A stretch of DNA of 64,000 nt from Rubripirellula sp. GTDB lineage: Bacteria; Planctomycetota; Planctomycetia; Pirellulales; Pirellulaceae. The stretch's first letter is position 1. Every line of letters begins with the position of its first letter. The notes beneath the pieces are model-generated. The model saw only the letters and a list, made by a program, of their open reading frames with translations. It searched no databases and was not told the DNA's origin. The stretch spans positions 67,346-131,345 of the forward strand of contig JAAXJB010000047.1 of assembly GCA_012270065.1 (NCBI GenBank), read 5' to 3'. The translations under genes were made by a program, and so were the position numbers. Of this stretch, positions 41,505-64,000 are shown in pieces.

Positions 41505-41914
41505 GTGTCGTTCCGCAGAGCATCAATGACGGACTTGGTGGTGTACTCATGAACACTATTCGGTTTGTTTGGGATTTGACAGATTCCTCGATTTGGTGCT
41601 ACCCTTTCGCATCAGTTTTGGGCTACCCGAGTCCGTTTTGCGGACTAAGATTGCCCGAGATGAGTCATATCCACTCAGTGATTGGCACGCCCGTGTTGTT
41701 GCTGAGCCCGCCTACACAAAGACAGATTATCGCCACTCTCGAAGATAACGAGGGTGATTTTGATGCTAGAAAGCGTCCACTCGTCGAAGAGTTGGAGGCT
41801 GGAAACAACAGTGAAGCACTCCGTCATCGTTCGCTGATTTCAGACGGGGTTGTTTAAACGTTAAACTGAAGATCAACAAGTAAATTAATCATCACGACCG
41901 GGAGCTTTACAGCC
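41505..41914. other. Promoter region of the DUF1501 cluster
   Basis: A 410-base gap. A 118-codon frame starting at GTG 41501, overlapping the preceding stop, is open but has no recognised content; I do not call it a gene. GGGAGC lies about 12 bases before the next ATG. Confidence 0.45.
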
Positions 41915-43219: not shown

Positions 43220-43272
43220 GATTCTGTGTTGCAATTCGCAGCTGGCATATTCATTGAACCCGTTGATCACCA

Positions 43273-45720: not shown

Positions 45721-45934
45721 TTGATGGCAGACCGGAACACTCCGGTATTGTCATGAACAAGCAGAACCAGGGCGATTAACGTGTCATGATTTTTTCTGTC
45801 CGAGTTCTTAACGTCGATCAAATAAGATTTGCCAGATCCAGTTTCACAAGTTTCACCGAACCAACCAATTCGAACTAATCAACCAGACTGGAACATTTCG
45901 TTCTGGTCCGAGGGAAAGACCCGCAGGTATCAAT

Positions 45935-48415
45935 ATGATGCGTCGACTATCCGTAACTCTTGCTCTCACATGTTTTCTTGTTTCGGCCGCACGAGGTGCT
46001 GAGCCCGAGCCAGCAACCGCAACCGCAGCGGCTTCTGCGTCGGCTTCCAAAGGGTCCGTGAAATCAGCTGGCGTGCTGTCCGTCTACCCTGAAATCATCA
46101 AGCTTGACACTTCTCGGGATTACCAATCGTTCATTGCCATGGTTCGACGTGGTGATGACGTTACGCTTGACGCAACCGATTTGGCCAAGTGGACTGTGGC
46201 TGACGACAAGTTGGCAAAAATCGAAGGGAATCGTCTCCTGCCGCTTGCCGATGGTGAAACAGAGCTGATTTGTGACCACGGGGGCAGTCAGGTTCGAATT
46301 CCCGTGACAGTTGGAAGAAGCTCTGAAAAGCTTCCCATCAGTTTTGAGAAGGATATCGTTCCGATCATGACACGCAGTGGTTGTAACACCGGTAGCTGTC
46401 ACGGAGCGGCACGCGGCAAAGATGGGTTCATGATCAGCCTGTTCGGTTATGACCCAGCCGGCGACTACACGCGAATCACGCGACAGATCGGCATGCGTCG
46501 AATCAATCTGGCGGTGCCGGAAGACAGCCTGTTTCTCACCAAGGCCGTGGGCAAGGTTCCCCACACAGGCGGAAAGCTGTTTGGCGAAGACAGTGTTTAC
46601 TATTCCATGATGCTTGAATGGTTGCAGGATGGTGCTTTGAAAGACGCGACACCACCCCCAAGTGTTGCAAAGCTCGAGATCTATCCTCCTCAGGCCGTCA
46701 TTGAGGGTACAGGAAGCACTCAGCGTTTCATCGCGGTTGCCCACTACTCGGACGGCACCACGCGCGACGTCACTAATCTGTCCGCTTTCATGACAAATAA
46801 TGAAACATCAGCAGCAGTTGATAAAAATGGAAACGTTACTGCCGGAGCCCGGGGTGAGGCCTTCATCATGGCTCGTTTTGAAACGAAAACCGAGGGGCGG
46901 CAGGTTTTGGTTCTTCCCAAGGATCTGCAGTATGAAGCTCCGGAAGTGACAGGTAACTACATTGATCAGCTTGTCGGTAAAAAACTCAATCAGCTGCGGA
47001 TCTTACCGAGTGGTCTTTGCACCGATGAAGAGTTTCTCAGGCGGGTTACCATCGACATCACCGGAATGCTGCCTACCGAAGAAGACTACCAGTTGTTCAT
47101 GAACGACGTTGCTGACGACAAGCGGGCAGCGCTCATCGAGCGTCTTTTGGGACGCAAAGAGTTCAGCGAAATCTGGGCCATGAAATTTGCCCAGCTGTTG
47201 ATGATCAAAAGCACCAATCAGGTTAGCTATAAGTCGGCGTTTCTTTACAACCAATGGCTGACTGACAAGTTCGCAAAAAACGTTCCGATCGATGAGATGG
47301 TGCGGGAATTGTTCGGTGCGACCGGAGGCACCTTCCGAAATCCCGCCACGAACTACTATCAGATCGAGCGAGACACGCTGAAGCGGGCTGAAAATGCCGC
47401 CCAGGTATTCATGGGCATCCGAACCCAATGTGCGCAGTGCCACAATCATCCACTGGATCGGTGGACGATGAATGACTACTACGGCTTCGCTGCGTTCTTT
47501 TGCCAAACCGGGACCAAAAACGCAGAAGACTACCGGGAAAAGATCATTTACGATCGTCGGAGTGGTGACGTAAGGCATGCTGTGACCAATCAGGTCATGC
47601 AACCCAAGTTTTTGGGTGGTGAACTTGCCGATACGAAAGGCAAGGATCGCCGCGTCGTGATGGCAGAATGGCTCACCAGCCCGGAAAACCCATATTTTTC
47701 AACAAGCATCGCTAATCGCGTTTGGGCGCACTTCATGGGCGTTGGAATTGTCGAGCCAGTAGATGACATACGTGTCAGTAATCCTGCGACCAACCCCGAG
47801 TTGTTCGAGAAACTGGGCGGAATGCTGTCCTCCTACAAGTTTGACTTCCGACAGTTGGTTCGTGACATTTGTAACAGTCAGGCATACCAGCGAAGTGCGA
47901 CTCCAAACGAAAGTAACAAAGGTGACACCCGAAACTATGCTTATGCAGTAGTTCGGAGGATACCAGCCGAAATGATGCTTGACTGTGTAAGCCAGGTGAC
48001 CAATACCAAAGAGAAGTTCCGCGGATTACCGTTGGGAGCACGGGCTGTACAGATTGCCGATGGTAGAACAAGCACCTATTTCCTTGACACCTTTGGCAGG
48101 TCAGCACGCGAGACCGTTTGTGATTGCGAGGCCACTACCGACCCATCGCTTTCGCAGGCATTGCATTTGCTGAATGGCAGCGCCACCAGCGGCAAGATTA
48201 CACAGGGCAAGGTAGTTGACGAGTTGCTCAAGGATGATGCATCCATAGAGAAAGCGCTGGAGCGTTTGTATGTGCGATGTCTCTCGAGATATCCGACGGA
48301 GATGGAACGCAAGGAATTGCTAGCTGCGGTCGAACAGGCCCCGAGCCCTAAAGAGGGTCTTGAGGATGTCTTTTGGGCCGTTTTGAACAGCCGCGAATTT
48401 GTGTTCAATCACTGA
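45935..48415 (+). CDS. DUF1549/DUF1553 protein with BIG2 and heme-motif segments
   Basis: An 826-residue exported protein (signal peptide about 1-21). An Ig-like BIG2 domain precedes DUF1549 and DUF1553 (PSCyt2/PSD1). A CX4CH motif is at Cys150-His156 (CNTGSCH), where canonical hemes use CX2CH. A canonical CAQCH is at Cys499-His503 inside DUF1549. DUF1553 follows (STSIANRVWAHFMGVGIVEP) and ends NSREFVFNH. Probably a periplasmic c-type cytochrome-like redox protein. Third member of the cluster. Confidence 0.93.
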   Translation: MMRRLSVTLALTCFLVSAARGAEPEPATATAAASASASKGSVKSAGVLSVYPEIIKLDTSRDYQSFIAMVRRGDDVTLDATDLAKWTVADDKLAKIEGNRLLPLADGETELICDHGGSQVRIPVTVGRSSEKLPISFEKDIVPIMTRSGCNTGSCHGAARGKDGFMISLFGYDPAGDYTRITRQIGMRRINLAVPEDSLFLTKAVGKVPHTGGKLFGEDSVYYSMMLEWLQDGALKDATPPPSVAKLEIYPPQAVIEGTGSTQRFIAVAHYSDGTTRDVTNLSAFMTNNETSAAVDKNGNVTAGARGEAFIMARFETKTEGRQVLVLPKDLQYEAPEVTGNYIDQLVGKKLNQLRILPSGLCTDEEFLRRVTIDITGMLPTEEDYQLFMNDVADDKRAALIERLLGRKEFSEIWAMKFAQLLMIKSTNQVSYKSAFLYNQWLTDKFAKNVPIDEMVRELFGATGGTFRNPATNYYQIERDTLKRAENAAQVFMGIRTQCAQCHNHPLDRWTMNDYYGFAAFFCQTGTKNAEDYREKIIYDRRSGDVRHAVTNQVMQPKFLGGELADTKGKDRRVVMAEWLTSPENPYFSTSIANRVWAHFMGVGIVEPVDDIRVSNPATNPELFEKLGGMLSSYKFDFRQLVRDICNSQAYQRSATPNESNKGDTRNYAYAVVRRIPAEMMLDCVSQVTNTKEKFRGLPLGARAVQIADGRTSTYFLDTFGRSARETVCDCEATTDPSLSQALHLLNGSATSGKITQGKVVDELLKDDASIEKALERLYVRCLSRYPTEMERKELLAAVEQAPSPKEGLEDVFWAVLNSREFVFNH

Positions 48416-48618
48416 TTTATCGGCAGTAAGTTCGCAGCTTTGTTTGCGCAAAGTTGCGGCAGGATAAAGCATGCGATCAGTGAGTGTTGCCAGCTGGATC
48501 AACGGGATCGACGGAGTACTGTCGATGTATCCCGCTCGCTACGTTATCGATCGCTGATTTTTTGCAGTTAACCAGCACAAGCTACCCTTTGTGCAATTAA
48601 TCAATCAAAGCATCGATC
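48416..48618. other. Intergenic hairpin region
   Basis: An imperfect hairpin (gcagctttg / caaagttgc) at about 48435-48460 lies soon after the preceding stop, but no T-run follows. It may weaken read-through. Confidence 0.35.
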
Positions 48619-51600
48619 ATGACCATCAGAGTTTCCCTGAGTTTTGTCGTTCTGGTTCTTACTTTGCTGCCGCTTGAAGGTCAGGAAAAGAAAACGGAAC
48701 AGGCGAGTCCAAATTTCATGGACCATGTGCTCCCTATCTTCCGGGAGCATTGTTTGCAGTGCCACAATGCGAATGATGCCGAGGCAGGCCTCGCCATAGA
48801 CAGCTTTGGAGCCTTGATGGAAGGAGGCGGAAGCGGTGATGTCGTGACGGCCGGCGATCCTTCGTCCAGCAAGTTGTATCTGGTGATGACTCATGATGAA
48901 GAACCGGCGATGCCGCCGAATCAGGAGCCGATTTCCAAAGAAAAATTGGACATCATCAAGAAATGGATCGAAGGTGGACTACTGGAGAACAGTGGCAGCA
49001 AGGCGAGAAAGCGTAAGGGGCCATCGCTCAGTTTCACTGCGATGGACGGTGGCAAGCCGTCTGAGATTGTCATGCCCGAAACCCTCTGGAGGGTTCCAGT
49101 GGTTGTTTCAAGTCGAGCCGCCGCATCGTCTGCACTTGCCGCCAGCCCGTGGGCTCCTCTGGTTGCAGTGGCAGGCCAGAAACAGGTCAGCCTGTACCAC
49201 ACTGAGACGGGTGAACTGGAGGGCATCATTCCGTTTCCCGAGGGCATTCCGCAAGTATTGGGTTTCAGTGTGGATGGTGGTTATCTGCTCGTTGCTGGTG
49301 GAACCCACTCTTCAAAAGGAGTTGCTTCGGTTTATGACATCAAGACCGGTGAACGGGTTATCCAGGTAGGAGATGAGTTGGACACTGTTTTTGGCGCCGA
49401 TGTCAACGATGATCTCAGCAAAATCGCTCTCGGTGGCCCGCAGAGAATCGTTCGGGTGTTTGACACTGCCAGTGGCGAGTCTTTATTCGAATTGAAGAAA
49501 CACACGGACTGGGTTTATACAGTTGACTTCAGTCCGGATGGCGTTTTGGTTGCGACCGGTGACAGGTCAGGTGGATTGCATGTCTGGGAAGCCGATACAG
49601 GTCGGCTGTATCTCGATTTGGTTGGACACAAAGGTGCGATCCGCGGCTTGTCCTGGAGGGCGGATTCCAATGTATTGGTCAGTGCCAGCGAAGATGGCAC
49701 GGTCAAGCTCTGGGAAATGAACAACGGAAAGCAGTTGAAGAGTTTCAATGCCCATGGTGGAGGCGCTACAGGGGTCGTCATGGCACGGGATGGCCGCATG
49801 GTGACATGTGGCAAGGACAAGACCGTGAAACTGTGGAATGCTGATGGTGGAGCCATTGCCACGATGCCAGCATTTGCGGAGCCGGCTCTTGAAGCCGTGA
49901 TCACCCATGACGGTTCACGTGTGGTGGGTGGCGACTGGTCAGGACGGACAGTGATGTGGGAGGTAGCTGACACCAAGAAAGCCGTTGAACTGGCTTCGAA
50001 TCCACCCCGCCTCGAAGAGTTGAAGTCGGAGGTCGCCGGGAAGATAGCGTCATTGAAATCCGCTGTTGACGCTGCGGTTGCGGCCGAAACAGCACAGCAA
50101 AAACAGGCGGAGACGGACAAGGCTGCTCACGCTGCCATGACCGCGAAGGTAGCCGAGACGAAAGCAGCTCTCGCGAAGATTGCTTCAGAGAAAGCCACCA
50201 GCGACAAGATGAGCACTCAGCTGCAGACACAGAAGGCTGCTCTGGATAAGACGCTTGCAGACGCGAAGGCGTCGATGATCGCTTTGAAAAAGCAGCTGGA
50301 CCAAACTCAGGTTTCAATCGCCGCTGAGCAGAAGCTTCTTGCTGAGGCGATCACCCGCCGTGACAAGGCAACTGCAGATAAAGCGCTGATTGACGGCAAA
50401 ATTTCCGGTCTGGAAGAACAGCATCAGAAGTTGAAATCTGTGGCTTTGGAGTCAATCGCAAAGCTGACCGATCGTGATGTGGAGCTCGCTGCAATGAAGC
50501 AGGCCTCGATCAATGCTGAAATGAATGCCGAGAAAGCCCGGAAGGCGTCGGAGGTCATGCTGACTCAGTTGAATGCCCAATTAGCTGAAGCAGGTAAAGT
50601 TGTACAAACCCTCAAGCAGCAAGTGGATGCCGCCAACCTGCAGCTAAAGAAGGACGGTGAGTCCGAGGCAGCTGCTGCAGCGGGAGTGAGTTCTGCTGTC
50701 AAGGCCGTCGAGGCTGCAGCTTCTTTGCTGGCCAAGGCCAAGCAGCAATTGGAAGCAGCATCTGATGAGGCGGCAAAGAAAGCAGCCGCTGATGGAGTTG
50801 CCAAAGCGGAGCAGGAAGTCAACAAAGCAAATGCACAGAAAGTCGAGTCCGACAAGCAATTGGCTGAAAAGAAGGCTGTCACGATCAACACGACAAAGAC
50901 TGTCGAACAACTGAAGCAGAAGATGGCTGAATCTCTGACTCGGCAAAGCAGTCTGATGAGCAAGGTTCCTGCGTTGAAGCAACAGATGGAAGGTCATCTA
51001 CTAGCTCGGGACACAGCAAGGAAGCAAACGGCTGGAATTGATACCCAACTGGCTCAAGTCGCCAGCGAGATGGCGGTTGCAGTTCAGGCGAAAGATGAAG
51101 CTGTTAAGAAGATGGCTGTTTACGTCAAAGATATCTCGGGCTTGAAAGCGGAGCAGCAGAGACTCGCTGGGGTGGTTGGTAGTGAAACGGAAGCAAAGAG
51201 CAAAGCGGAAAAGAAAATCTCCGAACTTGTTCTGGTTCGTGATGCCGTCAAACCTAAACTTGAAGCCAGCACCCAGCAGGTCGAGAAAATGGCAGGCACC
51301 TTGGCGAGTACGACCGGGAAATTGAATGCTCAGGTCGCTATCAGTTCCAAGCACGCTGAATCAATCAAGCAACTCACTGCATCTGTACCTGGTCTGGAAA
51401 AGCAGGTCGCTGCCGCGAAAACGAAAATGGATGCTTCTTCGGCCGCACTCGCCCCTTTACTGGCAGCAACCGGCACAGCACGTGAGAACCTTGCCGAGCA
51501 AACTTCAATGCTGGAGGGTATCGACTCGGAGTTGGTGCTCTTCCAGAAACAAAGCGAAAAGTTGGCTGCCGAGTTTGAAGCGGCTTCAAATACCGCAACC

Positions 51601-51879
51601 GTAAAACGAAAAGCACTGGAGCCTGTTCAGGAAAAGGTCACCAACGCCAGCAACGTGGTTGCGGCTCGCGAGACTCGAATCAAGCAGATGGCTGATGCGA
51701 TGGCGAAGCTACAAGCAGAGTTGGAAGGTTTAAAGCAGGCACAGGCGACGGATGAGGGCAAGTTGAAGGAAAGTCAGGCTGAACTTCAGAAGCTGGAAGC
51801 AGACGCCGAGGCTGCTGAAGCGGCAGCTGAGGAGTCCAAGGAGAAAGCGGAGTTCTTCCAATCTGTTTACGGTGCTTGA
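48619..51879 (+). CDS. Cytochrome - WD40 - long coiled-coil secreted protein
   Basis: A 1086-residue exported protein. After the signal peptide (1-21) a planctomycete cytochrome c segment carries CLQCH (Cys45, Cys48, His49) and a distal MPPN. Residues about 160-460 form a WD40 propeller with repeats such as WVYTVDFSPDGVLVATGDRSG and LSWRADSNVLVSASEDGTVKLWE. From about 470 to the end (about 610 residues) the chain is Ala/Lys/Glu/Gln-rich and almost free of Pro and Gly, a single long coiled coil. A redox head on a propeller with a rod suggests an elongated surface or periplasmic structural protein. Last gene of the DUF1501 cluster. Confidence 0.92.
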   Translation: MTIRVSLSFVVLVLTLLPLEGQEKKTEQASPNFMDHVLPIFREHCLQCHNANDAEAGLAIDSFGALMEGGGSGDVVTAGDPSSSKLYLVMTHDEEPAMPPNQEPISKEKLDIIKKWIEGGLLENSGSKARKRKGPSLSFTAMDGGKPSEIVMPETLWRVPVVVSSRAAASSALAASPWAPLVAVAGQKQVSLYHTETGELEGIIPFPEGIPQVLGFSVDGGYLLVAGGTHSSKGVASVYDIKTGERVIQVGDELDTVFGADVNDDLSKIALGGPQRIVRVFDTASGESLFELKKHTDWVYTVDFSPDGVLVATGDRSGGLHVWEADTGRLYLDLVGHKGAIRGLSWRADSNVLVSASEDGTVKLWEMNNGKQLKSFNAHGGGATGVVMARDGRMVTCGKDKTVKLWNADGGAIATMPAFAEPALEAVITHDGSRVVGGDWSGRTVMWEVADTKKAVELASNPPRLEELKSEVAGKIASLKSAVDAAVAAETAQQKQAETDKAAHAAMTAKVAETKAALAKIASEKATSDKMSTQLQTQKAALDKTLADAKASMIALKKQLDQTQVSIAAEQKLLAEAITRRDKATADKALIDGKISGLEEQHQKLKSVALESIAKLTDRDVELAAMKQASINAEMNAEKARKASEVMLTQLNAQLAEAGKVVQTLKQQVDAANLQLKKDGESEAAAAAGVSSAVKAVEAAASLLAKAKQQLEAASDEAAKKAAADGVAKAEQEVNKANAQKVESDKQLAEKKAVTINTTKTVEQLKQKMAESLTRQSSLMSKVPALKQQMEGHLLARDTARKQTAGIDTQLAQVASEMAVAVQAKDEAVKKMAVYVKDISGLKAEQQRLAGVVGSETEAKSKAEKKISELVLVRDAVKPKLEASTQQVEKMAGTLASTTGKLNAQVAISSKHAESIKQLTASVPGLEKQVAAAKTKMDASSAALAPLLAATGTARENLAEQTSMLEGIDSELVLFQKQSEKLAAEFEAASNTATVKRKALEPVQEKVTNASNVVAARETRIKQMADAMAKLQAELEGLKQAQATDEGKLKESQAELQKLEADAEAAEAAAEESKEKAEFFQSVYGA

Positions 51880-52414: not shown

Positions 52415-55400
52415 GTGGGTGAAATAAGTTGCCAGACTCGCCGTTTGGTGAGCCTGATCGTCCTACTCTGTGTTTCTTTCCTGCTGGTTGGGCCTGTGTT
52501 GGGGCAACCCCCGGGAACAACCCCAACACGTGATGTGTTCCCTCAGCAGGATGGGGTTGATAGCAGCGGTCTACCCATTCGTGCCTTCATGTTCCTGAGC
52601 GAGTCAGACAATGTTGTTCTGATGCCCGGATTATCGTGGGAAGAATTTGAGAGGTTGTCGAATCCCGACTTGGCGGTTGATACCAACCAGCAGTTATTCA
52701 GTTATCAGTCACTTTCAATCAAAGGCGAAGCTGATGCGGAGCGATTCGAAGGTGAGGTAATGCTCCGAATTCTTGTTACTCCAAGTCAGGGGCAGTGGAT
52801 ACGGATTCCTGTACAAATGGGTAACTTTCATCGATTGGCTTCCCCTGAAGTTACAGGAGCATCAGACCATTTCATGACATTGACATCGGATGGCGGTGGC
52901 CATCTGTTGTTGGTCAAAACAGAGCAGCAACAGGAAGTAACTTTGCGGATGAAAGTTTCATCAAGGGTTGTTTCCAATTCTGTTGCGAAGACACTTGCTT
53001 TCAAACTCCCGAATGTGCCATCAAAAATTGAATTGACTGTCAAGGCAGATGGGGTTCAGGGAGAGATTCTGGGTCGGGGTGACGAGGTATTGCTAAAGCA
53101 GTCATGGGCTGGAAAGGGTACTGATTTTCTGATCGAAAGTGGGGGTGGGAATTATTCTCTGCGCTGGGTGAGTTCTGCTCGGGCGAAGGATGACGTGCCC
53201 ATGCTTGAAGTCGAAAGTCGCATCAACGTCAGGTGGGAGTCGCCGCAGGATCCATTGATTGCCGAGTGTCTGGTGACGATTGAGAAACCACGTGGAGTGG
53301 TTGATTCCTTTCAGCTTCGTTTACCGCCGGGCGCAAAGTTGCTCGATTCGATTCAGATGAGTGATAGCGGGCAGACACTCGAACTTGGAGATCCGGTTGC
53401 GGGGCGAGAGAAAGAGATTCGAGATGTCATCATTCCTGAGCCTGCCCGCGGATCACGCGTTGATCTGAGATTTGAGTTGCAGTTGCCCAGCCAAAATGCC
53501 TCTCAAAACAAACCATTTAAATTTCGTGTTGCTGAGGTGATTGGTTCTCTGAGGCACAAGGGCATGATCGCCGTAGCCACGGGTAATGATTACCGTTTGC
53601 GATGGTTGAACAGTCCATGGGTTGATCGTGTTCTGGGTGAATCAAGCGAGGAGCCGGCAAATGCGGGAAGCATGTACGAGTTCCGTTTTGAACGTGCGTC
53701 TTTCGAGTTGCCACTTTATCTGGGCGAGAAGGCACGGCAGTTGCGGATGACGAGCAATTCAAAGCTTGATGTAAATGATTCCTTCGCAAAGCTCGACATG
53801 ACGATGTCAATCACAGGACAGGTATCCAAGGGCCTGCTGCAATTCAATGACGCTGGATGGCAGATCAGCGAGATTCAGAACTCGGAGACAGGAGAGTCAT
53901 TGGATTTATTTGAAGATGGCAACCGATTTCTGAATTTAAGAAGCGCGGGCACAGGTGATCTTTCGCAGATCAGGATTCTTGCAGACTTGCAGTTGCAGTC
54001 CGACAATGGAGAGATTGAGTTCTTTTTGCCCACAGTGACTGATGTTGATGGGGCTCCCAGTGTTCAAAAAGCAACTTTGGATATCAATAGTGGTGGTCGT
54101 TCGATGCTGGTGGTCGATCTGGCCGCTTCCGTTGGACTGACGCGTGGAATCGTAGCCAGCCCGGATGTTTCCGCAACCCGGTCAGCCAATACCCGTTATC
54201 AAGTCCAGACACAGGGGAAAGTGCCCAAGGTGGTCGGCGCACTTGTCGCCCAACCGCCCAGAATCATCCTTGGAAGCTCCGCCAGCATCGAGCTGTCTGG
54301 AGATAAGTTGAGAACGGAAGTAGATTGGACGGTTACATCGATTCTGGATCTGGAAGGGACTTTGAGTGTTCGTATTCCGAATGTAACCAGCCCTGTTGTG
54401 CCTGATGACAAAAATGGTTCTGTGGACGGTACATCGGAGGTCGGTGGATCCGGTACGGAGCAGGCAGCGGATGCAGCAGCAGATACGTCCGGGAGCAAAA
54501 AAGAGCCTGTCGACCCTCATGCCAAAGAACCGTGGTTGGTGACGATTGGCGGAACCCCTGCGAAACTCAAATACATCGAGGGTGACCGTTATCAGCTCAT
54601 TTCGCCAGCCATCAACACGGAACCAATGGACATCAAGTGGATACGAATTCAGGACTTGAATGAGGTCGTTGGTGACGGCACTGTGGTCGCAGTGCCCTTG
54701 CCGAGTCCAGATGTTCTTGATGTGACGATTCGAGGCAACATCGATGTGACCCTCAGGGGAGCCCAGAAGTTTGACCTTGTTTCAGCCGATCGCCAGCGGA
54801 AGAAACGCTTGGATTTACCCACTTTTCCACGTGAGCCGCTACGCCTGAAACTCTTGTCACGCCTGACCAGTCCCGAGGAATTGACCGTGCAAAAAACGGT
54901 TTTGCGGACTGTGGTTGGCCGAAATCTGCGGCACGAAAGCGTGCACGCGAAAGTGCAGGGCGGGGACAGCTTCAAAGTCGGGTTGCCGGTCGATATTGCT
55001 GACGTTTCAGTCCAGGCGTTCATCGATGGTGAACGGCGGACTGTTCGACGGGAGGAGAATAATCTGGTGGTACCGCTGCCAGGTGACAGTGGATCGCATG
55101 TGGTGGACTTGCAGGTCTGGTTTCCCCGCGAAACTCCAGCTTCATTTTCGAAGATCCAGCCCATGCTTCGGTTACCATTCGGCGTCGGCCGAGTGTACTG
55201 GCAGATTGTTGCACCTGCAGATGGTCATGTTCTTTGGGCCTCGCCCACCTTGGGCAGGAGTATGAGTTGGCGTTTTGATCGCTGGAAATTGTACCGACAA
55301 CCAACTCACGATGATCGCCGGCTTCTACGGCTTGTTGATGCGACCTCGGTCGCGACACCTCCCGGTAACCGGTATTTGTACATCGGTTCGGATCTTCGTT

Positions 55401-55804
55401 CTTTCGAAGTGGTTGTCGTTTCACGTGTGGTCCTTTGGATCCTGATCGGCTCAGTGGTTTTGCTTGCCGCGGTTGTGTTGACAAACTTCCCCCGATCCCG
55501 CCCTCCCGTAACCGGAGTGGTACTCGCGGTGATATGCGCTGGCCTACTCGCAATAGCTCCGGATGCAGGAGTTCTTGGAGGTCAATTCGGCATCATTGCA
55601 CTTGTTCTCGTTGTCGTCATGATTGCAGTACGCGTGCTTGTTTCTCCCACCAAGAATGGGCGAGTTTTTTCATCGACCGTTTTACCGACAGACCAGGCTC
55701 GCCCCCCATCTACCCGTTCTCTGGTTCCCGCTGCGTCGGAGGATCCGGGGATCACTGCAACGGAAGCGCTACCTCAGCCGGCACCTACCGAGGTGACGAC
55801 GTGA
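52415..55804 (+). CDS. Large exported membrane-anchored beta-rich protein (module 1)
   Basis: About 1129 residues if started at the GTG at 52415. The frame opens earlier, but the first credible signal peptide (RRLVSLIVLLCVSFLLVGPVLG) is at residues about 10-30. The ectodomain has alternating hydrophobic strands and few helices. Near the start is FMFLSESDNVVLMPGLSWEEFERL, then SYQSLSIKG. An acidic Ser/Asp/Gly linker lies near 690-710. The C-terminus has three membrane helices (about 1012-1093) and a basic/Pro-rich tail. No named domain recognised. The stop overlaps the GTG of the next gene (GTGA), so translation is coupled. Its architecture repeats in the next gene. Confidence 0.8.
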   Translation: MGEISCQTRRLVSLIVLLCVSFLLVGPVLGQPPGTTPTRDVFPQQDGVDSSGLPIRAFMFLSESDNVVLMPGLSWEEFERLSNPDLAVDTNQQLFSYQSLSIKGEADAERFEGEVMLRILVTPSQGQWIRIPVQMGNFHRLASPEVTGASDHFMTLTSDGGGHLLLVKTEQQQEVTLRMKVSSRVVSNSVAKTLAFKLPNVPSKIELTVKADGVQGEILGRGDEVLLKQSWAGKGTDFLIESGGGNYSLRWVSSARAKDDVPMLEVESRINVRWESPQDPLIAECLVTIEKPRGVVDSFQLRLPPGAKLLDSIQMSDSGQTLELGDPVAGREKEIRDVIIPEPARGSRVDLRFELQLPSQNASQNKPFKFRVAEVIGSLRHKGMIAVATGNDYRLRWLNSPWVDRVLGESSEEPANAGSMYEFRFERASFELPLYLGEKARQLRMTSNSKLDVNDSFAKLDMTMSITGQVSKGLLQFNDAGWQISEIQNSETGESLDLFEDGNRFLNLRSAGTGDLSQIRILADLQLQSDNGEIEFFLPTVTDVDGAPSVQKATLDINSGGRSMLVVDLAASVGLTRGIVASPDVSATRSANTRYQVQTQGKVPKVVGALVAQPPRIILGSSASIELSGDKLRTEVDWTVTSILDLEGTLSVRIPNVTSPVVPDDKNGSVDGTSEVGGSGTEQAADAAADTSGSKKEPVDPHAKEPWLVTIGGTPAKLKYIEGDRYQLISPAINTEPMDIKWIRIQDLNEVVGDGTVVAVPLPSPDVLDVTIRGNIDVTLRGAQKFDLVSADRQRKKRLDLPTFPREPLRLKLLSRLTSPEELTVQKTVLRTVVGRNLRHESVHAKVQGGDSFKVGLPVDIADVSVQAFIDGERRTVRREENNLVVPLPGDSGSHVVDLQVWFPRETPASFSKIQPMLRLPFGVGRVYWQIVAPADGHVLWASPTLGRSMSWRFDRWKLYRQPTHDDRRLLRLVDATSVATPPGNRYLYIGSDLRSFEVVVVSRVVLWILIGSVVLLAAVVLTNFPRSRPPVTGVVLAVICAGLLAIAPDAGVLGGQFGIIALVLVVVMIAVRVLVSPTKNGRVFSSTVLPTDQARPPSTRSLVPAASEDPGITATEALPQPAPTEVTT

Positions 55805-58800
55805 GTTTTGCACCGAAACGTGGTTTCTGTTCCCAACGCGATTTCGGCCTGCAAAGCACGATCGGGGCCATCTGTACTGGCAGGCGTTTGAAATTGTTTG
55901 GTGGCTTGGCGGGTTGTCGGAAAGTCAGTTGGCTTACGTGCATCACCTTGATGATCGTTTGTTTCGTTTCCGCGACCAAATCAGTCAGCTCCGTGCTTGC
56001 TCAGGAAGTAGGTCAAACAGACGGTAGCAGGCCGCAGACTGGCCAAACCGGCAACGGCTCCATCGATGGGGATCCAGTCTCGAATTCTGATGTGGAAGTG
56101 TCAGAGACTTCCATCGGCGGGGAGACGAATGCAAGGATTTCTGTACCCACTGCGCTTCCAGATGGCAGAAGGTTCACACCAATCGGAATGTATCAATCAC
56201 AGATGGATGTGCTCGTCCCGAACGATTATCGTCCTGTTTCTCTGGAACAACTCAATCAGGCGGTTGCCAGATGGACGGCGCGTGCTACCGATGATCAAAC
56301 GAGCCGTTTGAAAGATGCAATTTATTGGGTCCAGGTTATTGACGATAGGCTTGTCAGTGACACAAGTATCCTTGTTATCGAATCAGATCGCAAAGAGCAG
56401 GTCCGTCGATCATTGGGGAAAGTCAACTTGGCTGTTGACCAGCCAACCGGTTTTTCTCCAGGAAATACAATTGTCCCGCGAATGGAATCGGAGCCTGATG
56501 GAAATCTGGTTGCTGTATTTCAGGGCGAGGATGATGCCGGAAGTAGTTCGAAGATCAGCTACTCTTGGAACAAACGCGGAACGAAACTTGGTGATGGGTA
56601 TTCTTTCAAACTGCAAATCCCCCGGGCGCCGCAGGCCAAGTTTTATTTTTCAATGCCAAGTGATATCTCGTTAACTGCCTCGCAGGGTGTTCTCAGGGAG
56701 TTGTTGCAGGCACCTGTGGAAGCGACTGTGGTTTCGCGCAGAAATGCAACCAACGAGGGCAGTGAAACGAACGGAACGGAGGGGTTGAGGTGGTATGAAC
56801 TGGATGCTGGTGGGCTTGATGAGGTATCGATCCGCACCCGCAGTGATGACATTAATTCATCTTTGGGCAGTTTTGTCATTCGCAGTTGCGAAATGCAGTA
56901 TGAAGCTCAACGCCTCGGACTGAGTTGGACCTGCAAAATGGTTGTTCAGGTTTCCGACGCGTGGTCGTTGCCGGAGCTTTTCATCGGGGATGCACTGGTC
57001 ACCAGCATAGAAATTGACAATCGTCAAATCCAGTTTTCCAAATCCAGTTCCGTTGATCACGATGGCCAATTGGAACTTGGAGCATTCAGTGACATCGATG
57101 TGGCTGTCGATGGACTTCTTGATGTGGTGGTCACTGGACACAGTCGTTGGAATGGTGCACAGGGTTGGTGTGGATTGCCCATGCCCGTCTGGGTCGGTGA
57201 TGCTGTTTTACACGCGGCGGTAGTAGACGAAGCACAGTTGTCGGTCAGGGAACCACTGCAAATACTGAATTGGGAGTTACCTGAAGATTGGCAGTGGAAA
57301 AATACGAGCACAGAAACAGATGTAACAACAGTTGAAGTGGAAGGTCCTGCACTGACTGCGCGTGCGGACGATTTTCCTTTGAGTACTTATTCGGAGTTGA
57401 TGGCAGCGAGTCAATGGTCAAGAGTCCGACTCTTTAATAAGGCTGTGTACAGCCGCAGTGAAACGGCTTTACAGCTGAATGTCGTTGATGGTCAGTTGCG
57501 GGCACGGGCAAGAATAGAAATCAAGGTGGATTCCAATCGCCTCGAACCTGTCCAGCTGCTTGTCCAGGCAGGTTGGGGGTGTCAGTCCATCAGTCTGGTG
57601 CACTCGGGTCGTGTAATCGAGGATCCCCGAATCATCGAGGATCCCCGAATCCGCGCCAGGAAAGTCGTATTCTGGCCTGAGGACAACGACGTACAAGACG
57701 GAACAATACTACTTGAAGCGGAGGGTAGTGCGGATCTGAACCTGGTCCAGGAGAACGCAGTTGCGCTCCGAGTAACAGGTGGGGAGGATTTGCTTGCTGA
57801 AAACGCGACCACGAATAGCAGAGTGCCTTCCGGCAGGGGGACGAATGATCGCAAAGCCGGGAATGGTAAACCTGATACCAATCGTGCAACAGCAACGCGT
57901 GTTCCTGCGAGCTGGTTTTTAAGAGCAAAGCAGACACGCGGAACCATGCTTGCGGCTGTCATACCACCCAAGGATCTGAATTGGAGTGGTGAAGTTGCAA
58001 TGCAGAATGGAGTTCCAGACATCGAACAGTTAACACCAGAACAGGAATCATTTTTTACCGGCTTGAGTCCAGAGACGCTCTGGTTCAAGCCTGCTTCTGG
58101 TCGTACACCTGAGTTGTTACTGCTGAAACCCAGCGTCAGCTTCAACGCCAAAACATCATTTGATGTGAGCCGGCTTGGTGATGAAGTGTTGGAGACTCTG
58201 ACGATTGAAATTGAATCTGATGGTTTGTTTCGGGAGAGACTGCAGGTTCAGACTGGAAGCCTGGAGGGACGTGGTGAGTTCATTTGGTCCATTCGTGATA
58301 AGGATGGCGGCAATACGATTAGTCTCCCGGCATCGGATATTTCTGAAGTCGCGGGAGCCTACTCAATCGATCTTTCCGAACGGAACTTGCGCGGCAGACA
58401 ACTGATTGCGCGTCGTGCTTACGAGATACCAGATTCCATCGAAATACAATTGCCGATTGTGAGTGGAGCTTCGTCACAGGACGCAGTAGCCAGCATCGGC
58501 GAGGGACTTCTAGTCAGTCAGAAGCCGGCGGATGTTCAGAAAGTGCCGATTCAAACCTTGCACAGGAGATCAATCGCGAGTGATTCGGATGTTGAGATGG
58601 GTGCTGCAGATGGAACCGCGCTGGATCTCGAAACGGTTCCCGACGGTACTGATGATCGGGCAACCGTCAACGATGGAACAACGAGACTGAGATACGATGC
58701 AATCCAGTCGTCGTTCATTACTGTAAGGCGATCGGACATCAATCCCAGTGTCACCATGGTGTGGCGTGAACAGATTCTGGTAGAGGCTTCGAGTCGTGGA

Positions 58801-61800
58801 ACAGATCGCATCGAAGCAACATTCAGAGTATCACCGACAGCTCCATTGGTAATCTCCTATGAGCCTGAATTGCAACTTGAGTCAGTTGAGCGTGATAATG
58901 TTCCGATTGATTTGATGGCGGTTCAAAGAAGACCATTGATTCTGGAAACGAAGTCTGATACCGAGACGATCCGCGTGGTCTGGAACCGTAGTCAATATGG
59001 TCCAAGTTGGATGCGGGAGTGCAAGCTGCCGATAATTGATGTTTCAGGTACGGTGCTGAAGTCGGAGTACCGACTCGTAGCAGCTTCTGATACTTTCGCC
59101 CCACTGGCCCTGATTCGCGGAGATCAGGCAGGGACCGGAGTTGCTTCGGTGATAGCTATGCAGCCAGGGGAATCAACCACTCTGGTGCGGCGAAACATTG
59201 CTCTGGCGATCGGGTGGCTATGGGCGTTATTGACGTTTGCAGTGTGTTGGTTTGTTGCGGAACGTTCACCTTCGGTGGTCGCCGGTGTTCTGATTGTTTT
59301 TACAGCAATTCTTGTTTTGTGGTGGCCATGGAAACTGGCTGTGATTGGCTGGTTGATTATTCCTGCGGTAACCGCAGCAGTTCTGGCGACGAGCCGGCAC
59401 TGGTCGGAAGAAGATCCGGCGATTGAGCTTCCATCCCGATGGGGTGATGGCGATCTGCACAGTTCCAGAGACCGGTCGCATGATTTTTCACTTGATGTGA
59501 CGGCGAAAACGCTTGGCTGGTTGATGGTGATGGTGTTCTGTTTCGCGACATTCGCGTCGGCACAGGACACGCAAAACCGTGAACCACAACTTTCAGGTGA
59601 CACAGACCAGATCAATGTGGAGTCGGAAAATGAAAGTCAGATTGAATCAACGGCAGCGGTATCTGAACGGCAGCAATCGGGGCGACTCAAGGAAGTGAAT
59701 GTGCTTGTGCCGATGGATAAGGCAGGCAGGCATTTGGGATCAATGGTCTACATCCCTGGCAAAGTTCATTCGCAGCTCTTTCAAAGAGGGAATCGTTCCG
59801 AGCCAAAAGATGCTCGAATCGCTGTAGCCGACTACAGGGTCAATCTTCAGCCTGATTTGGTGAGCGCAGGCACAACGGATGGAGTGACCATTGAGGCGGA
59901 TTATCTGATTCATCTGCAAGATGGTGATCAGGGTACGAATGTTGTTCGCCTACCGATTCCGTATACCGCAGTTCGCAGTGTGGAACTGCTTGGTTCTGAC
60001 AATCCGCGACAGGTCCATGATCGTGACAAGAATGGTTGGACGATAGTGAACCTGCCAGCAACGTCATATGTCCGCTTGCGACTGGTGCTGATCCCGATGG
60101 TCACACTGGAGCAGCCATGGATTGATGTCACTGTTCCCGTCCCGTCCGTCGCTTCCTCCCGTCTGGTTGTGCAGTCAGAGCAGAATATCAGCGCCTTGCG
60201 AGTGGCAGGGCGGTTGCTGGAAGAAACAGAACTCAGGCGGTGGAAAGAGGATCTCGGGCCGTGTGACGAAATGTCAATTGAATTCAGGACATTGCTAACT
60301 GCAAAAACAGAAGCAGAGAGAAAACTTGGCCGGCGATATCGTGTCAATGCAGGGCGGCGGCAGGTTGCAATCGAATGTGAAGTTGACCCGCCGGGGCTGA
60401 TTGCGGAGGGAGAGACATTTCAGTTTGATATCCGCGATTCACGGATGCCGCTGGTGACTTCCAGTGATTGGAAACTTGAAAGTGGTGAACTCAAAAGTTC
60501 GAATCGAAGGCAGATGATATTCATTTGTCGAAAAGATAATCCGGGGCCAATTGGACTCTTGTGGACGCTGCCAGCGAAGGTCGTCGAGGAAGCGACGGAT
60601 GAGTCGAGCATTCGAATTCCGGAGGTCACCGCGACTTTTGGCAATGATGGAGATGCCTGGCTGGCTCTTTACAGTGATCCAGGCTTGCAGTTTGAGTTGC
60701 AGGAGGAAAAACCAAGCGACACTTTCTCAGTCGACGACTTCAACAGGAATTGGCGTGGTTTCCCCGAGAAAATCAATGATCGTTGCTATGTGATCACGGG
60801 GGATTTGCCGATGCTGACCCTCAGAGAACGCCCGACTGAAGCGGCATCGGTCAGCCAACAACATGATTTGAAGGTGCAGCGTGACCGGCTCGAATTGACA
60901 TACAGCGCGACTTTGCGTCCTGGAACGGAGTCCAGCCAGCTGTTTTCTCTCTGCTTGCCCGATGATCTGGAGTTGTTGAACCTGACGGTCAATGGGGAGT
61001 CACTGTCAGTACAACCTCTGATGGTCGAAAAGCACGCAGAGATCCCACTAACAACCTTTTCAAGTGAAAACGTGACTGGTCTCGCGGAGATCAAGATTGA
61101 GGCTGTTGGTGTCCAGCGATTCAACTGGCGCAGCCAGAAGCGATCCCAGATGTTCATTCCACCACGCATCACAATTTCGCCAGAGATCGATACGACTGAC
61201 AACTATTCAATTTTTCATGATCGGTCAACAACACTGACAGCGGTTAATCGACCTTTGCAGGATTTGGAAGACACAAGTTTCAAGTTCTCCAAACAGTCGT
61301 TGGCTCAGGGCTGGATACCGGAGGCCGCCTGGCAGATACCAACGAACAGGAAAGTTGATCCGACAAGTCTCGGAGGGCGATACAAATTATCGAAACGTGG
61401 TGATGCGTTTGATTGTGATCAGGAGATTACACTGAACCGCACGGATGGTGTCTGGCAGATGGAAGTCAGACTCGATGTTCTGTCTGGTTCGCGTCCGGAG
61501 TTCATCGATGTTGAAATCCCGACGCGATGGTCCCAGAGTGATAAGCTCCAGATCGAAAATTCTGGAATTTGGACGCGCCAGCCCTCCGTTGATCCATTGA
61601 GACATATCATTCGCGTTGCACTTGATGCGCAATATTCTGACGGTCCAAGTTTGGTCATTCGAGGTGAGCTTGTGGGAGCCGAGTCAGCGCGTGTAAGTGT
61701 ACCATCGGTCCGCGTTCTTGGACGGGGTAAGCGTCGGGTGATGATCAACGTTCCAACTCGTCTTGGAAATGACAAATTGCAATGGCGCGAGCAAGCAGTG

Positions 61801-62982
61801 AAAGCAGTTCCCACGGGTCTGAAAGATTTCGCTCGCTACGAGTGCCAAAGACCGTCATGGACGGTTGATTTGGCGCCTCTGCCTGAAGTGGATGTTGAAC
61901 CCGAACTGTTTGGCAGTGATGTGGAAGTGTTTCCCAACAACGATGGTATTCTGGTACTGTCCCACTGGGATCTCTTTCCCGGAGGTCTCGATTCGGTTGT
62001 TGTCAAACTGCCACCAGAGACCACTTTGTTGGCTGCTTGGGCTGCAGGTCGAGCGGTGGTTGCAGAGCCGGTGGGGGAGGTTGGCACTGAGAGCAAGTCC
62101 TCGCTTGTTCGAGTTCCACTTGCACTGACACGTTTAGGACAACCGATCGAATTATTGCTTGAAGCGTCAGCCTCTGCAGCGCGCAGAGGCAATTATCTTC
62201 CCGAGTTGCAGGAGATTCCCAATTCCGGTTTCTGGGTCACTCACTATGCTTCTTCTGGTCCTTCAGAAGTAGACCGAAAGAAACCGGCAGAATCTGCTGC
62301 TCGAGGTCTGTCTCTTGCTCGCGGCGTGTGTGAATCTGTTGAGTCACTTGATCGCCTTTCACAGAGGCCAAGGGCTGAGATTGTTGCCTGGTTGCAGTTG
62401 TGGATAAAACGCTATTTGATGATAGCCGATACCTACGGCCACCGTGTCAGGTTTGTAAAGGATCAGGATCAGGATCCACGCGAGTCGGTGCTGACGGACC
62501 CTGTCAATCTATGGGCCAGCTCGGCAATGACGGCTGCGGAGCAGGAGCAGTGGATGGAATTCGATTCTCGGATGGGTGTGTTCGTTAACCGTTTTCTGAA
62601 AGAAAGCGAACTGCAGGAAGCACGGGATGCCAAGTTTTTCTTTTTCGATGTGGGAGGGTTTGGAGGATTTTATCCCCAGACCATTTTCAAACAGGCTGCG
62701 AAAGCTTCAGTGCCATCAGTGAAGCTCGCCTCGGAGAAGAGCAGCGGTTTACGGAATTTGATTGTCAACAGCATTACACTTGCCGTCATCGTTGCCTTGT
62801 TGAGTTGCGTTGGCTCTTTGCAGCGGTTCATTGTTCCTGTTGTCCGGCATCCTGCATTCTGGTTGGCGTTGGTAGGCATTTTTGGATTCGCGGTCGCGCC
62901 CGTGGCGGTTGCCGGTGCAATTCTTCTGGTTGCCATTGCCTTGCCAGTGTTTCCGGCCCGAGGCACATCGTCATCCGGTTAA
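55801..62982 (+). CDS. Giant fused protein: two exported beta-rich membrane modules (modules 2 and 3)
   Basis: A 2393-residue protein from the GTG at 55801, overlapping the previous stop (GTGA). A first signal peptide (VSWLTCITLMIVCFVSATKS) leads to a beta-rich ectodomain of about 1080 residues, then three membrane helices at about 1133-1201. Near 1237-1258 a second signal-peptide-like segment appears (TLGWLMVMVFCFATFASAQ), followed by another about 1050-residue beta-rich region and three final membrane helices at about 2316-2390. Short motifs recur at the same positions of the modules. Overall it looks like two fused copies of the preceding protein. An 18-bp tandem repeat encodes IEDPRI twice (57616-57651). 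Function unknown. Confidence 0.85.
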   Translation: MSFAPKRGFCSQRDFGLQSTIGAICTGRRLKLFGGLAGCRKVSWLTCITLMIVCFVSATKSVSSVLAQEVGQTDGSRPQTGQTGNGSIDGDPVSNSDVEVSETSIGGETNARISVPTALPDGRRFTPIGMYQSQMDVLVPNDYRPVSLEQLNQAVARWTARATDDQTSRLKDAIYWVQVIDDRLVSDTSILVIESDRKEQVRRSLGKVNLAVDQPTGFSPGNTIVPRMESEPDGNLVAVFQGEDDAGSSSKISYSWNKRGTKLGDGYSFKLQIPRAPQAKFYFSMPSDISLTASQGVLRELLQAPVEATVVSRRNATNEGSETNGTEGLRWYELDAGGLDEVSIRTRSDDINSSLGSFVIRSCEMQYEAQRLGLSWTCKMVVQVSDAWSLPELFIGDALVTSIEIDNRQIQFSKSSSVDHDGQLELGAFSDIDVAVDGLLDVVVTGHSRWNGAQGWCGLPMPVWVGDAVLHAAVVDEAQLSVREPLQILNWELPEDWQWKNTSTETDVTTVEVEGPALTARADDFPLSTYSELMAASQWSRVRLFNKAVYSRSETALQLNVVDGQLRARARIEIKVDSNRLEPVQLLVQAGWGCQSISLVHSGRVIEDPRIIEDPRIRARKVVFWPEDNDVQDGTILLEAEGSADLNLVQENAVALRVTGGEDLLAENATTNSRVPSGRGTNDRKAGNGKPDTNRATATRVPASWFLRAKQTRGTMLAAVIPPKDLNWSGEVAMQNGVPDIEQLTPEQESFFTGLSPETLWFKPASGRTPELLLLKPSVSFNAKTSFDVSRLGDEVLETLTIEIESDGLFRERLQVQTGSLEGRGEFIWSIRDKDGGNTISLPASDISEVAGAYSIDLSERNLRGRQLIARRAYEIPDSIEIQLPIVSGASSQDAVASIGEGLLVSQKPADVQKVPIQTLHRRSIASDSDVEMGAADGTALDLETVPDGTDDRATVNDGTTRLRYDAIQSSFITVRRSDINPSVTMVWREQILVEASSRGTDRIEATFRVSPTAPLVISYEPELQLESVERDNVPIDLMAVQRRPLILETKSDTETIRVVWNRSQYGPSWMRECKLPIIDVSGTVLKSEYRLVAASDTFAPLALIRGDQAGTGVASVIAMQPGESTTLVRRNIALAIGWLWALLTFAVCWFVAERSPSVVAGVLIVFTAILVLWWPWKLAVIGWLIIPAVTAAVLATSRHWSEEDPAIELPSRWGDGDLHSSRDRSHDFSLDVTAKTLGWLMVMVFCFATFASAQDTQNREPQLSGDTDQINVESENESQIESTAAVSERQQSGRLKEVNVLVPMDKAGRHLGSMVYIPGKVHSQLFQRGNRSEPKDARIAVADYRVNLQPDLVSAGTTDGVTIEADYLIHLQDGDQGTNVVRLPIPYTAVRSVELLGSDNPRQVHDRDKNGWTIVNLPATSYVRLRLVLIPMVTLEQPWIDVTVPVPSVASSRLVVQSEQNISALRVAGRLLEETELRRWKEDLGPCDEMSIEFRTLLTAKTEAERKLGRRYRVNAGRRQVAIECEVDPPGLIAEGETFQFDIRDSRMPLVTSSDWKLESGELKSSNRRQMIFICRKDNPGPIGLLWTLPAKVVEEATDESSIRIPEVTATFGNDGDAWLALYSDPGLQFELQEEKPSDTFSVDDFNRNWRGFPEKINDRCYVITGDLPMLTLRERPTEAASVSQQHDLKVQRDRLELTYSATLRPGTESSQLFSLCLPDDLELLNLTVNGESLSVQPLMVEKHAEIPLTTFSSENVTGLAEIKIEAVGVQRFNWRSQKRSQMFIPPRITISPEIDTTDNYSIFHDRSTTLTAVNRPLQDLEDTSFKFSKQSLAQGWIPEAAWQIPTNRKVDPTSLGGRYKLSKRGDAFDCDQEITLNRTDGVWQMEVRLDVLSGSRPEFIDVEIPTRWSQSDKLQIENSGIWTRQPSVDPLRHIIRVALDAQYSDGPSLVIRGELVGAESARVSVPSVRVLGRGKRRVMINVPTRLGNDKLQWREQAVKAVPTGLKDFARYECQRPSWTVDLAPLPEVDVEPELFGSDVEVFPNNDGILVLSHWDLFPGGLDSVVVKLPPETTLLAAWAAGRAVVAEPVGEVGTESKSSLVRVPLALTRLGQPIELLLEASASAARRGNYLPELQEIPNSGFWVTHYASSGPSEVDRKKPAESAARGLSLARGVCESVESLDRLSQRPRAEIVAWLQLWIKRYLMIADTYGHRVRFVKDQDQDPRESVLTDPVNLWASSAMTAAEQEQWMEFDSRMGVFVNRFLKESELQEARDAKFFFFDVGGFGGFYPQTIFKQAAKASVPSVKLASEKSSGLRNLIVNSITLAVIVALLSCVGSLQRFIVPVVRHPAFWLALVGIFGFAVAPVAVAGAILLVAIALPVFPARGTSSSG
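57616..57651 (+). repeat. In-frame 18-bp tandem duplication
   Basis: atcgaggatccccgaatc occurs twice in tandem, giving IEDPRI-IEDPRI in the protein. A recent slippage event is likely. Confidence 0.9.
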
Positions 62983-63095
62983 ATGCGTTAGAATTCGGGT
63001 GAGCTCACGGGTAGTCTTTCGAATCAGTCCATGCTGGATATGAATTGGATGGCGATCGGATTTGTCACACTGATCCTGCTTGCAACGTACTAACG

Positions 63096-64000
63096 ATGAA
63101 AAATTCATTCGCAATGAAAAAGAATCTTGCAAGACCAAGCGTCTATGGATACCTGTTTCTGATTTGCTTCTTCATGAAATTTGGAGGTGGCTTGTCATAT
63201 GCGCAGAACACCTTGGAGGACAGGCGAAGCAGCGAAATCGACAAAAAGGCCAACGCTGCGCATTCGGTGACTGACATACAAGGGTCGTTCAGCTTGAGGT
63301 CAGGGTACACGGTACAGGCAATCGCAACGGAACCACTGATTGCTGATCCTGTGACTGCCCGACTTGATTCGGGTGGACGATTGTGGGTAGTCGAGATGCC
63401 CGATTACCCCATGGGTCCGGCTGATGGAAAGGCTCCGAGCGGCCGTATCAAGATACTTGCTGACAAGGATCATGATGGCGTCTTTGATCATGCAACGGTA
63501 TTCGCAAGTGGACTGTTGTTTGCCACCGGGATACAGCCGTATCGTGATGGAGCATTTGTAACTCTGGCTGGTAAAATCATCTTCCTGCGTGATCGGGACC
63601 ATGACGGTCAAGCCGATGAGACGGTTGTCTTATTCGAGGGATTTGCAGAGCAGAATGAGCAGTTACGCGCAAATCATCCTACCCTTGGTCCGGATGGTCT
63701 TGTTTATGTGGCTGGTGGATTGCGAGGGGGATCGATCAAAGCAGTGGATCCTCGTTATGACGCGCGGACAGCGCCAGTTGACCTGCGTGATCGCGATTTT
63801 TGCTTTGACCCGGAAGGCGGTTGGTGGGGCTCTGTTCCTGGAAAGAGCCAATTTGGCGTTTCGATTGATGACTTTGGCAGAAGATTTGGTTGCAGTAACC
63901 GGAATCCGGCCATGATGCCAGTCCTGACTCTGGATGCCGTTCAACGCGATCCGTTATTGGTGGGGCGAGATGCGATACACGACGTCGCATTGGCTGCGGA
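63096..64000 (+). CDS. PVC-type heme-binding dehydrogenase, 5' part (runs off window)
   Basis: Starts at ATG 63096 and stays open to the right edge (301 codons seen). A signal peptide is present (hydrophobic residues about 19-37, cleavage near SYAQ). Then comes FSLRSGYTVQAIATEPLIADPVTARLD and LWVVEMPDYPMG, the opening of the PVC-type membrane-bound dehydrogenase domain (six-bladed glucose/sorbosone dehydrogenase-like propeller). Asp-rich calcium-type loops follow: DKDHDGVFD and DRDHDGQAD. Full-length members end with a HEAT region and a c-type heme domain, which would lie outside the window. The start follows a 20-codon frame by two bases. Confidence 0.88.
   Translation, partial: MKNSFAMKKNLARPSVYGYLFLICFFMKFGGGLSYAQNTLEDRRSSEIDKKANAAHSVTDIQGSFSLRSGYTVQAIATEPLIADPVTARLDSGGRLWVVEMPDYPMGPADGKAPSGRIKILADKDHDGVFDHATVFASGLLFATGIQPYRDGAFVTLAGKIIFLRDRDHDGQADETVVLFEGFAEQNEQLRANHPTLGPDGLVYVAGGLRGGSIKAVDPRYDARTAPVDLRDRDFCFDPEGGWWGSVPGKSQFGVSIDDFGRRFGCSNRNPAMMPVLTLDAVQRDPLLVGRDAIHDVALAA

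Follow-up and report, generated by a model that had tools for sequence, protein, structure and literature searches.

How one open reading frame comes to carry two large exported proteins in succession, and whether its two halves are separated after synthesis, is the question raised by this locus in the 64,000-nucleotide stretch that was analysed (the window, from an assembly of 7.0 Mb). The locus consists of two genes on the plus strand. Gene A (52415..55804, GTG start, stop at 55802-55804) encodes the first unit, U1, of 1129 residues. Its signal peptide was read from the sequence and the hydrophobic maximum at about residues 11-30 (52445..52504), with a predicted cut VLG|Q after residue 30, and its three C-terminal helices were placed by hydropathy, charge bias and the structure model at about residues 1005-1023, 1035-1053 and 1058-1076 (55427..55642). 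Gene B (55801..62982, GTG start) runs through 2393 residues with no internal stop and holds the fused units U2 and U3. Unit U2, delimited by hhalign to U1 and U3, takes up 1254 residues to the predicted cut (55801..59562). It comprises, in order, a signal peptide read from the sequence (55930..56001, predicted cut VLA|Q after residue 67), an ectodomain, three membrane helices at about residues 1133-1151, 1156-1174 and 1179-1197 (59197..59391, from hydropathy, charge bias and an alignment of 38 proteins), a polar linker of the joint that is predicted to be cytoplasmic (59392..59490, from the joint alignment) and an internal signal peptide (59491..59562) whose predicted site for signal peptidase I is ASA|Q, residues 1254/1255 (59562/59563). 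Unit U3, recognised by hhalign to U1 and U2 and modelled with AlphaFold2, has 1139 residues from that predicted cut (59563..62982) and is made of an ectodomain and three C-terminal helices at about residues 2320-2338, 2343-2361 and 2363-2381 of B (62758..62943, from hydropathy and the model).

The coordinates given for U1 and for the second frame in the original prediction were correct on the ORF and sequence reading, and units 2 and 3 do form one frame, 55801-62982 being open throughout. The 19-residue hydropathy rule applied to the window recovered the three C-terminal hydrophobic helices that had been proposed for each unit and the N-terminal signals of U1 and U2; the internal signal is below the length needed by this rule and shows as a 9-residue core with a mean hydropathy of 2.88. 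The first 4 nt of gene B coincide with the last 4 of gene A (shared GTGA), which suggests translational coupling. This overlap is exactly 4 nt in 33 of 37 two-gene loci, window included, the exceptions being L068, L093, L098 and L099.

The single-sequence search of 99 relatives gave a match to U1 in 67 and to U2 in 33 of them, and 40 loci, one region from each of 40 genomes among these relatives, were fetched. The fused frame was complete in 37 of the 40 loci of the order, and the remaining three (L069, L090, L100) end at a contig edge. With the window, the 38 fused frames span 2240-2978 codons from stop to stop. Another 22 fused joints were found in 18 genomes; of these joints, one (L151) comes from the same family, six (L143-L148) from the same class and 15 from the rest of the phylum. 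This count leaves out the long ORF of L165 (2386 codons). The original prediction had allowed that a base error might have removed a stop codon between 59403 and 59510. That the fusion is an artefact of a lost stop codon or of misassembly has a practically negligible chance and is already refuted by the relatives, which carry the same fused frame: nothing found in the window speaks for it, and the point on its side is the assembly G109 (L132), where an in-frame TAG lies within the U2 helices. This TAG, near 12777 of G109:C26, interrupts an otherwise fused frame between helices 2 and 3 of U2, whether through a sequencing error, decay or readthrough, and since both parts stand in the same frame this locus was not counted as a case of separate genes.

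A true case of separate genes was revealed by the search that the original prediction had proposed. One distant assembly, G159 (L134), carries three tandem ORFs of 1129, 1262 and 1148 codons whose best scores are with U1, U2 and U3 respectively. Its third gene begins 47 nt past the stop of the second with its own ATG and signal peptide, and at the C-termini only two helices of the second gene and one of the third satisfy the hydropathy rule. Next to a U1-like gene, three more loci (L133, L139, L154) carry a gene for a single unit, about 1450-1530 codons long and with 2+3 helices, and no U3 was recognised near them; several of the other fetched loci are truncated by the end of a contig. A U1-profile match with one in-frame stop was also seen in G080, G254, G310 and G316 (TGA) and in G266 (TAG).

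The distribution of the family was surveyed with the U1 profile. Matches were obtained in 106 of the 118 genomes of the order set (each at least 90% complete), nine of the 12 misses falling in family f7, in 58 of 79 genomes sampled class-wide and in 39 of 149 sampled phylum-wide, where it is to be considered that these searches score few candidates per genome and that a match may be a paralogue. No U1 match was found on plasmids by tblastn. The window's own genome contains a second, diverged fused double-module ORF of 2408 codons on the minus strand (L174, G000:C9:8000-27900). It matches the U3 profile with E 4e-25, has mid-chain helices and one C-terminal helix, and its joint is signal-like and ends SIA|Q. 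The fusion is ancient.

The relationship among the three units was analysed by profile-profile alignment, as had been suggested, using profiles built from 37 U1, 38 U2 and 38 U3 sequences of the order. The hhalign alignments were long for U1-U2 (905 columns, E 1.3e-27, 99.8%), U1-U3 (801 columns, E 1.4e-24, 99.6%) and U2-U3 (806 columns, E 1.2e-26, 99.7%). The true pairs scored 236-264, while the nine controls with reversed profiles reached 32-58, with the maximum for U1 against its own reverse. The three units are paralogues; the common descent proposed for them is borne out by these alignments and controls, absence of homology between the units is excluded, and the motif noticed by eye near the start of each unit falls within the long homology of 801-905 columns. 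Off-register matches between units were also observed with E down to 8e-12, for example U1 270-715 against U2 514-952 (E 3e-10), and from these each unit is probably repetitive inside; single profiles compared with themselves gave no match to internal repeats.

The descent of the units was further followed with a FastTree phylogeny of 66 units. Units of the window type formed three groups, U1, U2 and U3 (13 each), with SH-like support of 100 each, sorting by position in the operon and not by species. A second type of cassette occupied a separate side of the tree (27 rows, support 100). The second-type U1 grouped with the first of the separate genes (support 100) and the second-type U3 with the third (98); the second-type U2 rows were not resolved as one group in this tree, and the second genes of G159 and G109 joined one fused U2 (L149) with support 96. 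As the tree was made by a simple method and has long branches (median end branch 1.19), with the tool's warning on long branches meeting, only its coarse grouping is trustworthy.

The orientation of the chain in the membrane was assessed from the charges of the loops, counted in proteins with exactly three helices by the rule, odd parity being assumed for the rest. For U1 (35 of 37 proteins) the K+R/D+E counts were 62/0 in loop 1-2, 1/12 in loop 2-3 and 93/18 behind helix 3; for U2 (30 of 38) they were, in the same order, 45/8, 14/4 and 77/52, and for U3 (12 of 38) 25/3, 1/2 and 28/1. This pattern clearly indicates for U1 a predicted topology with the ectodomain out, loop 1-2 in, loop 2-3 out and the tail in, and points less sharply to the same arrangement for U2 and the few resolved U3. 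An odd number of helices would make the linker cytoplasmic and so orient the next peptide rightly as a signal. The second-type proteins agree in parity, with five helices in seven of them as counted from hydropathy windows; in the own-genome relative L174 six windows pass and five helices are read, a count that is unsure. The loop charges thus put the predicted position of the ectodomains at the outer face of the cytoplasmic membrane, and none of the results places them on the cell surface as part of the large surface assembly envisaged earlier.

The joint between U2 and U3 was then compared across the order. All 38 joints show a polar linker and then a hydrophobic stretch after the U2 helices, the best 9-residue core ranging from 1.70 to 3.64. 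A strict cleavage motif, [AVSTGILC]xA|[QED] after a hydrophobic core, was present in 24 of the 38 joints compared with 13 of 293 among the ordinary helices of these proteins (U1 11/109, U2 0/100, U3 2/84); Fisher's test on the pooled counts gave p 9e-18, which is no true probability because the rows are related. The same motif was present in 27 of 37 N-terminal signals of A and 27 of 37 of B, scored by a laxer rule that accepts a hydrophobic stretch anywhere near the start, and in 23 of 33 B signals in a narrower window. A|Q or G|Q after the core was found in 31 of 38 joints, in 3 of 100 U2 helices and in 1 of 81 U3 helices, but also in 34 of 109 U1 helices, and a relaxed motif covered 35 of 38 joints but also 40 of 109, 7 of 100 and 13 of 81 helices of U1, U2 and U3. 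The strict motif is lacking in 14 of the 38 joints. The glutamine at +1 of the joint is the same as in VLG|Q of U1 and VLA|Q of U2. The SAQ site originally read here does lie in the joint; its likely cut is ASA|Q (59562/59563), with Q as residue +1.

A weight matrix trained on the gene-A signals separated the joints from helices moderately (AUC 0.758, against 0.75 for held-out B signals) and performed poorly on 21 further joints (AUC 0.59). The scores above the 95th percentile of helices were those of 10 of 38 joints, 1 of 21 further joints and 7 of 34 B signals. By eye, 20 of the 22 further joints have a type-I-like site and two a lipobox-like end; by the fixed strict rule 11 of 21 pass compared with 6 of 102 helices, and in the second-type (type II) cassettes a site was read by eye at each joint. 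The two lipobox joints (L158, L168; FGG|C or LGG|C) are not counted as evidence of a second kind of processing, the loose pattern occurring in 10 of 102 helix controls. The sequence-based case for a cleavage signal is therefore strong within the order and weaker outside it. The internal signal peptide of the original prediction is supported by its conservation across the alignment of 38 proteins from the order and by the site in further joints. The own genome has two places that match signal peptidase I (PF10502). Both features of a split precursor were found here, namely two membrane or exported products in one open frame and an internal signal peptide with a predicted signal peptidase I site.

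The same joint can be read in other ways. If B were left uncut, the internal signal would be a further membrane helix, a signal anchor, and U2-U3 a permanent double-module protein. The topology would be identical with or without cutting, the fused form is the commonest among the loci read and the weight matrix separates joints from helices only moderately, all of which fit an uncut chain; the enrichment of the motif at the joint (24/38 against 13/293 other helices), the agreement of its +1 Gln with the N-terminal signals and the assembly with the units as separate genes argue against it. An uncut double-module protein is less likely than a cut precursor and, on its own, is judged unlikely. U3 might also be made apart, by an internal start or reinitiation in the joint, with the fused frame as part of the output. 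In-frame GTG, TTG and ATG codons do occur in the window immediately ahead of the signal segment and within it, but no internal start codon is conserved among the 38 joints; an in-frame start in the 18-codon n-region was counted in 23 of 38 joints, less than the 27.9 expected from codon frequency, and a Shine-Dalgarno-like stretch in just three of the joints, so that this origin of U3 is given very little probability. The precursor cut by signal peptidase, which the original prediction had offered as a polyprotein-like reading, is supported by the conserved joint, the site in further joints and the separate-gene assembly, its cutting being predicted.

The fold of the units was investigated with AlphaFold2 models of U1 and U3, each built from 16 sequences. 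U1 reached pLDDT 68 and pTM 0.31 and U3 (59566-62979) pLDDT 77 and pTM 0.39, and with these pTM values the domain arrangement in the models is not reliable. Helices were modelled in U1 at 994-1024, 1031-1046 and 1051-1076, with low confidence in that part, and in U3 at 1056-1094, 1096-1110 and 1113-1128. Residues 92-440 of U1 matched ribophorin I/Ost1 with Z 13.9 over 319 aligned residues and rmsd 7.6; residues 425-774 of U3 matched Ost1 with Z of about 12 but rmsd of about 17, and 25 over longer spans. Single U1 and U3 domains matched the M1-aminopeptidase N-domain with Z of about 10-12 and rmsd 3-5. On these models of moderate confidence, the M1 N-domain fold is found in both units, as is the tandem pair of M1-N-like domains in one chain that is a feature of Ost1, and the two models resemble strings of M1-aminopeptidase-N/Ost1-like domains. 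The match is one of modelled fold and shows no function, and unlisted folds stay possible. The pattern HExxH was found in two of 37 A proteins, one of them the window's U1 (HESVH), and in one of 38 B proteins; a metallopeptidase was rejected because the motif is absent from 35 of the 37 A and 37 of the 38 B proteins, the M1 likeness being of fold only. The repeated beta domains would, by inference from the models, act as a non-catalytic scaffold.

In family searches, the window's U1, U2 and U3 have no Pfam or NCBIfam match up to E 1, and the U1 profile against PDB sequences up to E 1 gave two chance hits and nothing else. Among 34 members of A1, single weak Pfam matches to TgpA_N, DUF5693, DUF7711 and SupH-like_C were obtained, in one member each, and no NCBIfam match; 16 U3 members had no Pfam match, the member-by-member scan covering A1 and U3. 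It was also considered that the units are surface adhesins forming a visible structure on the cell surface. Their large beta-rich ectodomains would suit such a role and Foldseek lists integrin alpha chains, though at TM-scores of about 0.1, which were taken as chance strings of beta domains and rejected. The C-terminal helices with positive-inside loops favour anchoring in the cytoplasmic membrane, and since the units have no Pfam match they have none to the planctomycete surface signal PF07595, which is mentioned in PMC8567305; adhesins are thus regarded as improbable.

The neighbouring genes did not reveal a function, as no consistent partner was found and neighbours differ among lineages. 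In the window, the gene before A encodes a PSCyt1-WD40 protein. The region 40203-51879 (plus strand) is an array of genes for a PQQ-type propeller, DUF1501, PPC/TIG, PSCyt2-PSD1 (DUF1549/DUF1553) and the PSCyt1-WD40 protein, in which PSCyt1-WD40 is followed by a long Ala/Lys/Glu-rich stretch, probably a coiled-coil; a DUF7133 (PF23500) gene lies downstream of B at 63045-64000 and runs off the window end. In 12 loci of other genera (L084-L086, L089, L090, L092, L094, L095, L099, L100, L144, L147) one BLAST cluster is found directly upstream of gene A, and the member scanned (L086) is an inositol monophosphatase. Outside the order, where one or two upstream genes were scanned in each of 17 loci, a VWA/YfbK gene is upstream of the cassette in five, and one more locus has a VIT-VWA gene beside it. 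Judged by open frames, the VWA/YfbK gene lies within a few nucleotides of the cassette or overlaps it in L142, L165, L167 and L168, and it is 840 nt off in L171. The genes of L165 and L167 additionally encode a zf-HC2 domain, and in L150 a zf-HC2/VIT/VWA protein is beside the cassette on the other strand. The VWA/YfbK protein may be a partner of the cassette in those lineages.

The homology of the units, the gene layout, the conservation of the joint, the charge-based topology and the fold of U1 and U3 are supported by the above results. The reading that we regard as likely is that B is a precursor split by signal peptidase which supplies two of the three subunits of an envelope complex anchored in the inner membrane; the cutting, equal dosage, assembly and scaffold role of U1-U3 are what we infer. 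The two-gene operon would make three homologous envelope proteins, A giving U1 and B the U2-U3 precursor. Sec would export the U2 ectodomain and the odd number of helices would return the chain to the cytoplasm, after which the internal signal peptide would re-open export and the U3 ectodomain would cross the membrane. Signal peptidase I would then cut at ASA|Q and free U2 from U3, U2 keeping the spent signal as a tail. The result would be equal amounts of U2 and U3 alongside U1, each anchored by its C-terminal helices, with ectodomains of tandem M1-N/Ost1-fold beta domains probably forming a non-catalytic scaffold at the outer face of the cytoplasmic membrane. Our working guess for the role of the three proteins is an envelope complex held in the cytoplasmic membrane.

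A broader proposal, to which we give slightly less than an even chance, is that of a lineage-wide polyprotein, in which planctomycetes assemble an envelope complex from three ancient paralogous giant subunits, with two of them made in one chain split by the ordinary signal peptidase, the processing being older than the class split of the phylum and serving possibly for 1:1 dosage and co-insertion of neighbours in the membrane. To our knowledge, signal-peptidase-cut polyproteins are typical of viruses, and few bacterial cases are known. If the proposal is true, a conserved split precursor, with the U1 profile matching 106 of 118 genomes of the order and the window's units matching neither Pfam nor NCBIfam, would mark a central element of the planctomycete envelope and provide a clean system for asking why two subunits stay in one chain. 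A further implication is that signal peptides within long ORFs merit annotation and should not be read as transmembrane helices. No description of the cassette was found in the literature searched, which has most subscription journals outside it and includes the accessible parts of PMC8567305, PMC2875224 and PMC10632474.

The closest known systems share single features with the cassette. The modelled U1 and U3 domains have the fold of Ost1/ribophorin I, a part of the oligosaccharyltransferase, and of the M1 aminopeptidase N-domain; unlike Ost1 and M1 proteins, U1-U3 carry C-terminal helices, mostly miss HExxH and have no such Pfam match, and on the models U1 and U3 have apparently more M1-N-like domains per chain. 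The phlebovirus/SFTSV Gn/Gc and Flaviviridae structural proteins are likewise membrane polyproteins, with an internal signal peptide that both initiates the following ectodomain and marks the cleavage site, whereas those precursors are viral genes and use the eukaryotic signal peptidase complex. FbcH, the cytochrome b/c1 precursor of Bradyrhizobium japonicum, is one gene whose two membrane-anchored products are separated by signal peptidase cleavage at an internal signal peptide past a multi-helix segment. A relation by descent was not found: no cytochrome b or cytochrome c1 domain was seen, U1, U2 and U3 giving no Pfam or NCBIfam match within the E limit of 1. Gene B is like FbcH in having one frame with an internal signal peptide after helices, its split being predicted. 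It differs in that the halves of FbcH are unrelated respiratory subunits, whereas U2 and U3 are giant modules homologous to each other and to a third, U1, in the preceding gene, and in that it is found over much of a phylum.
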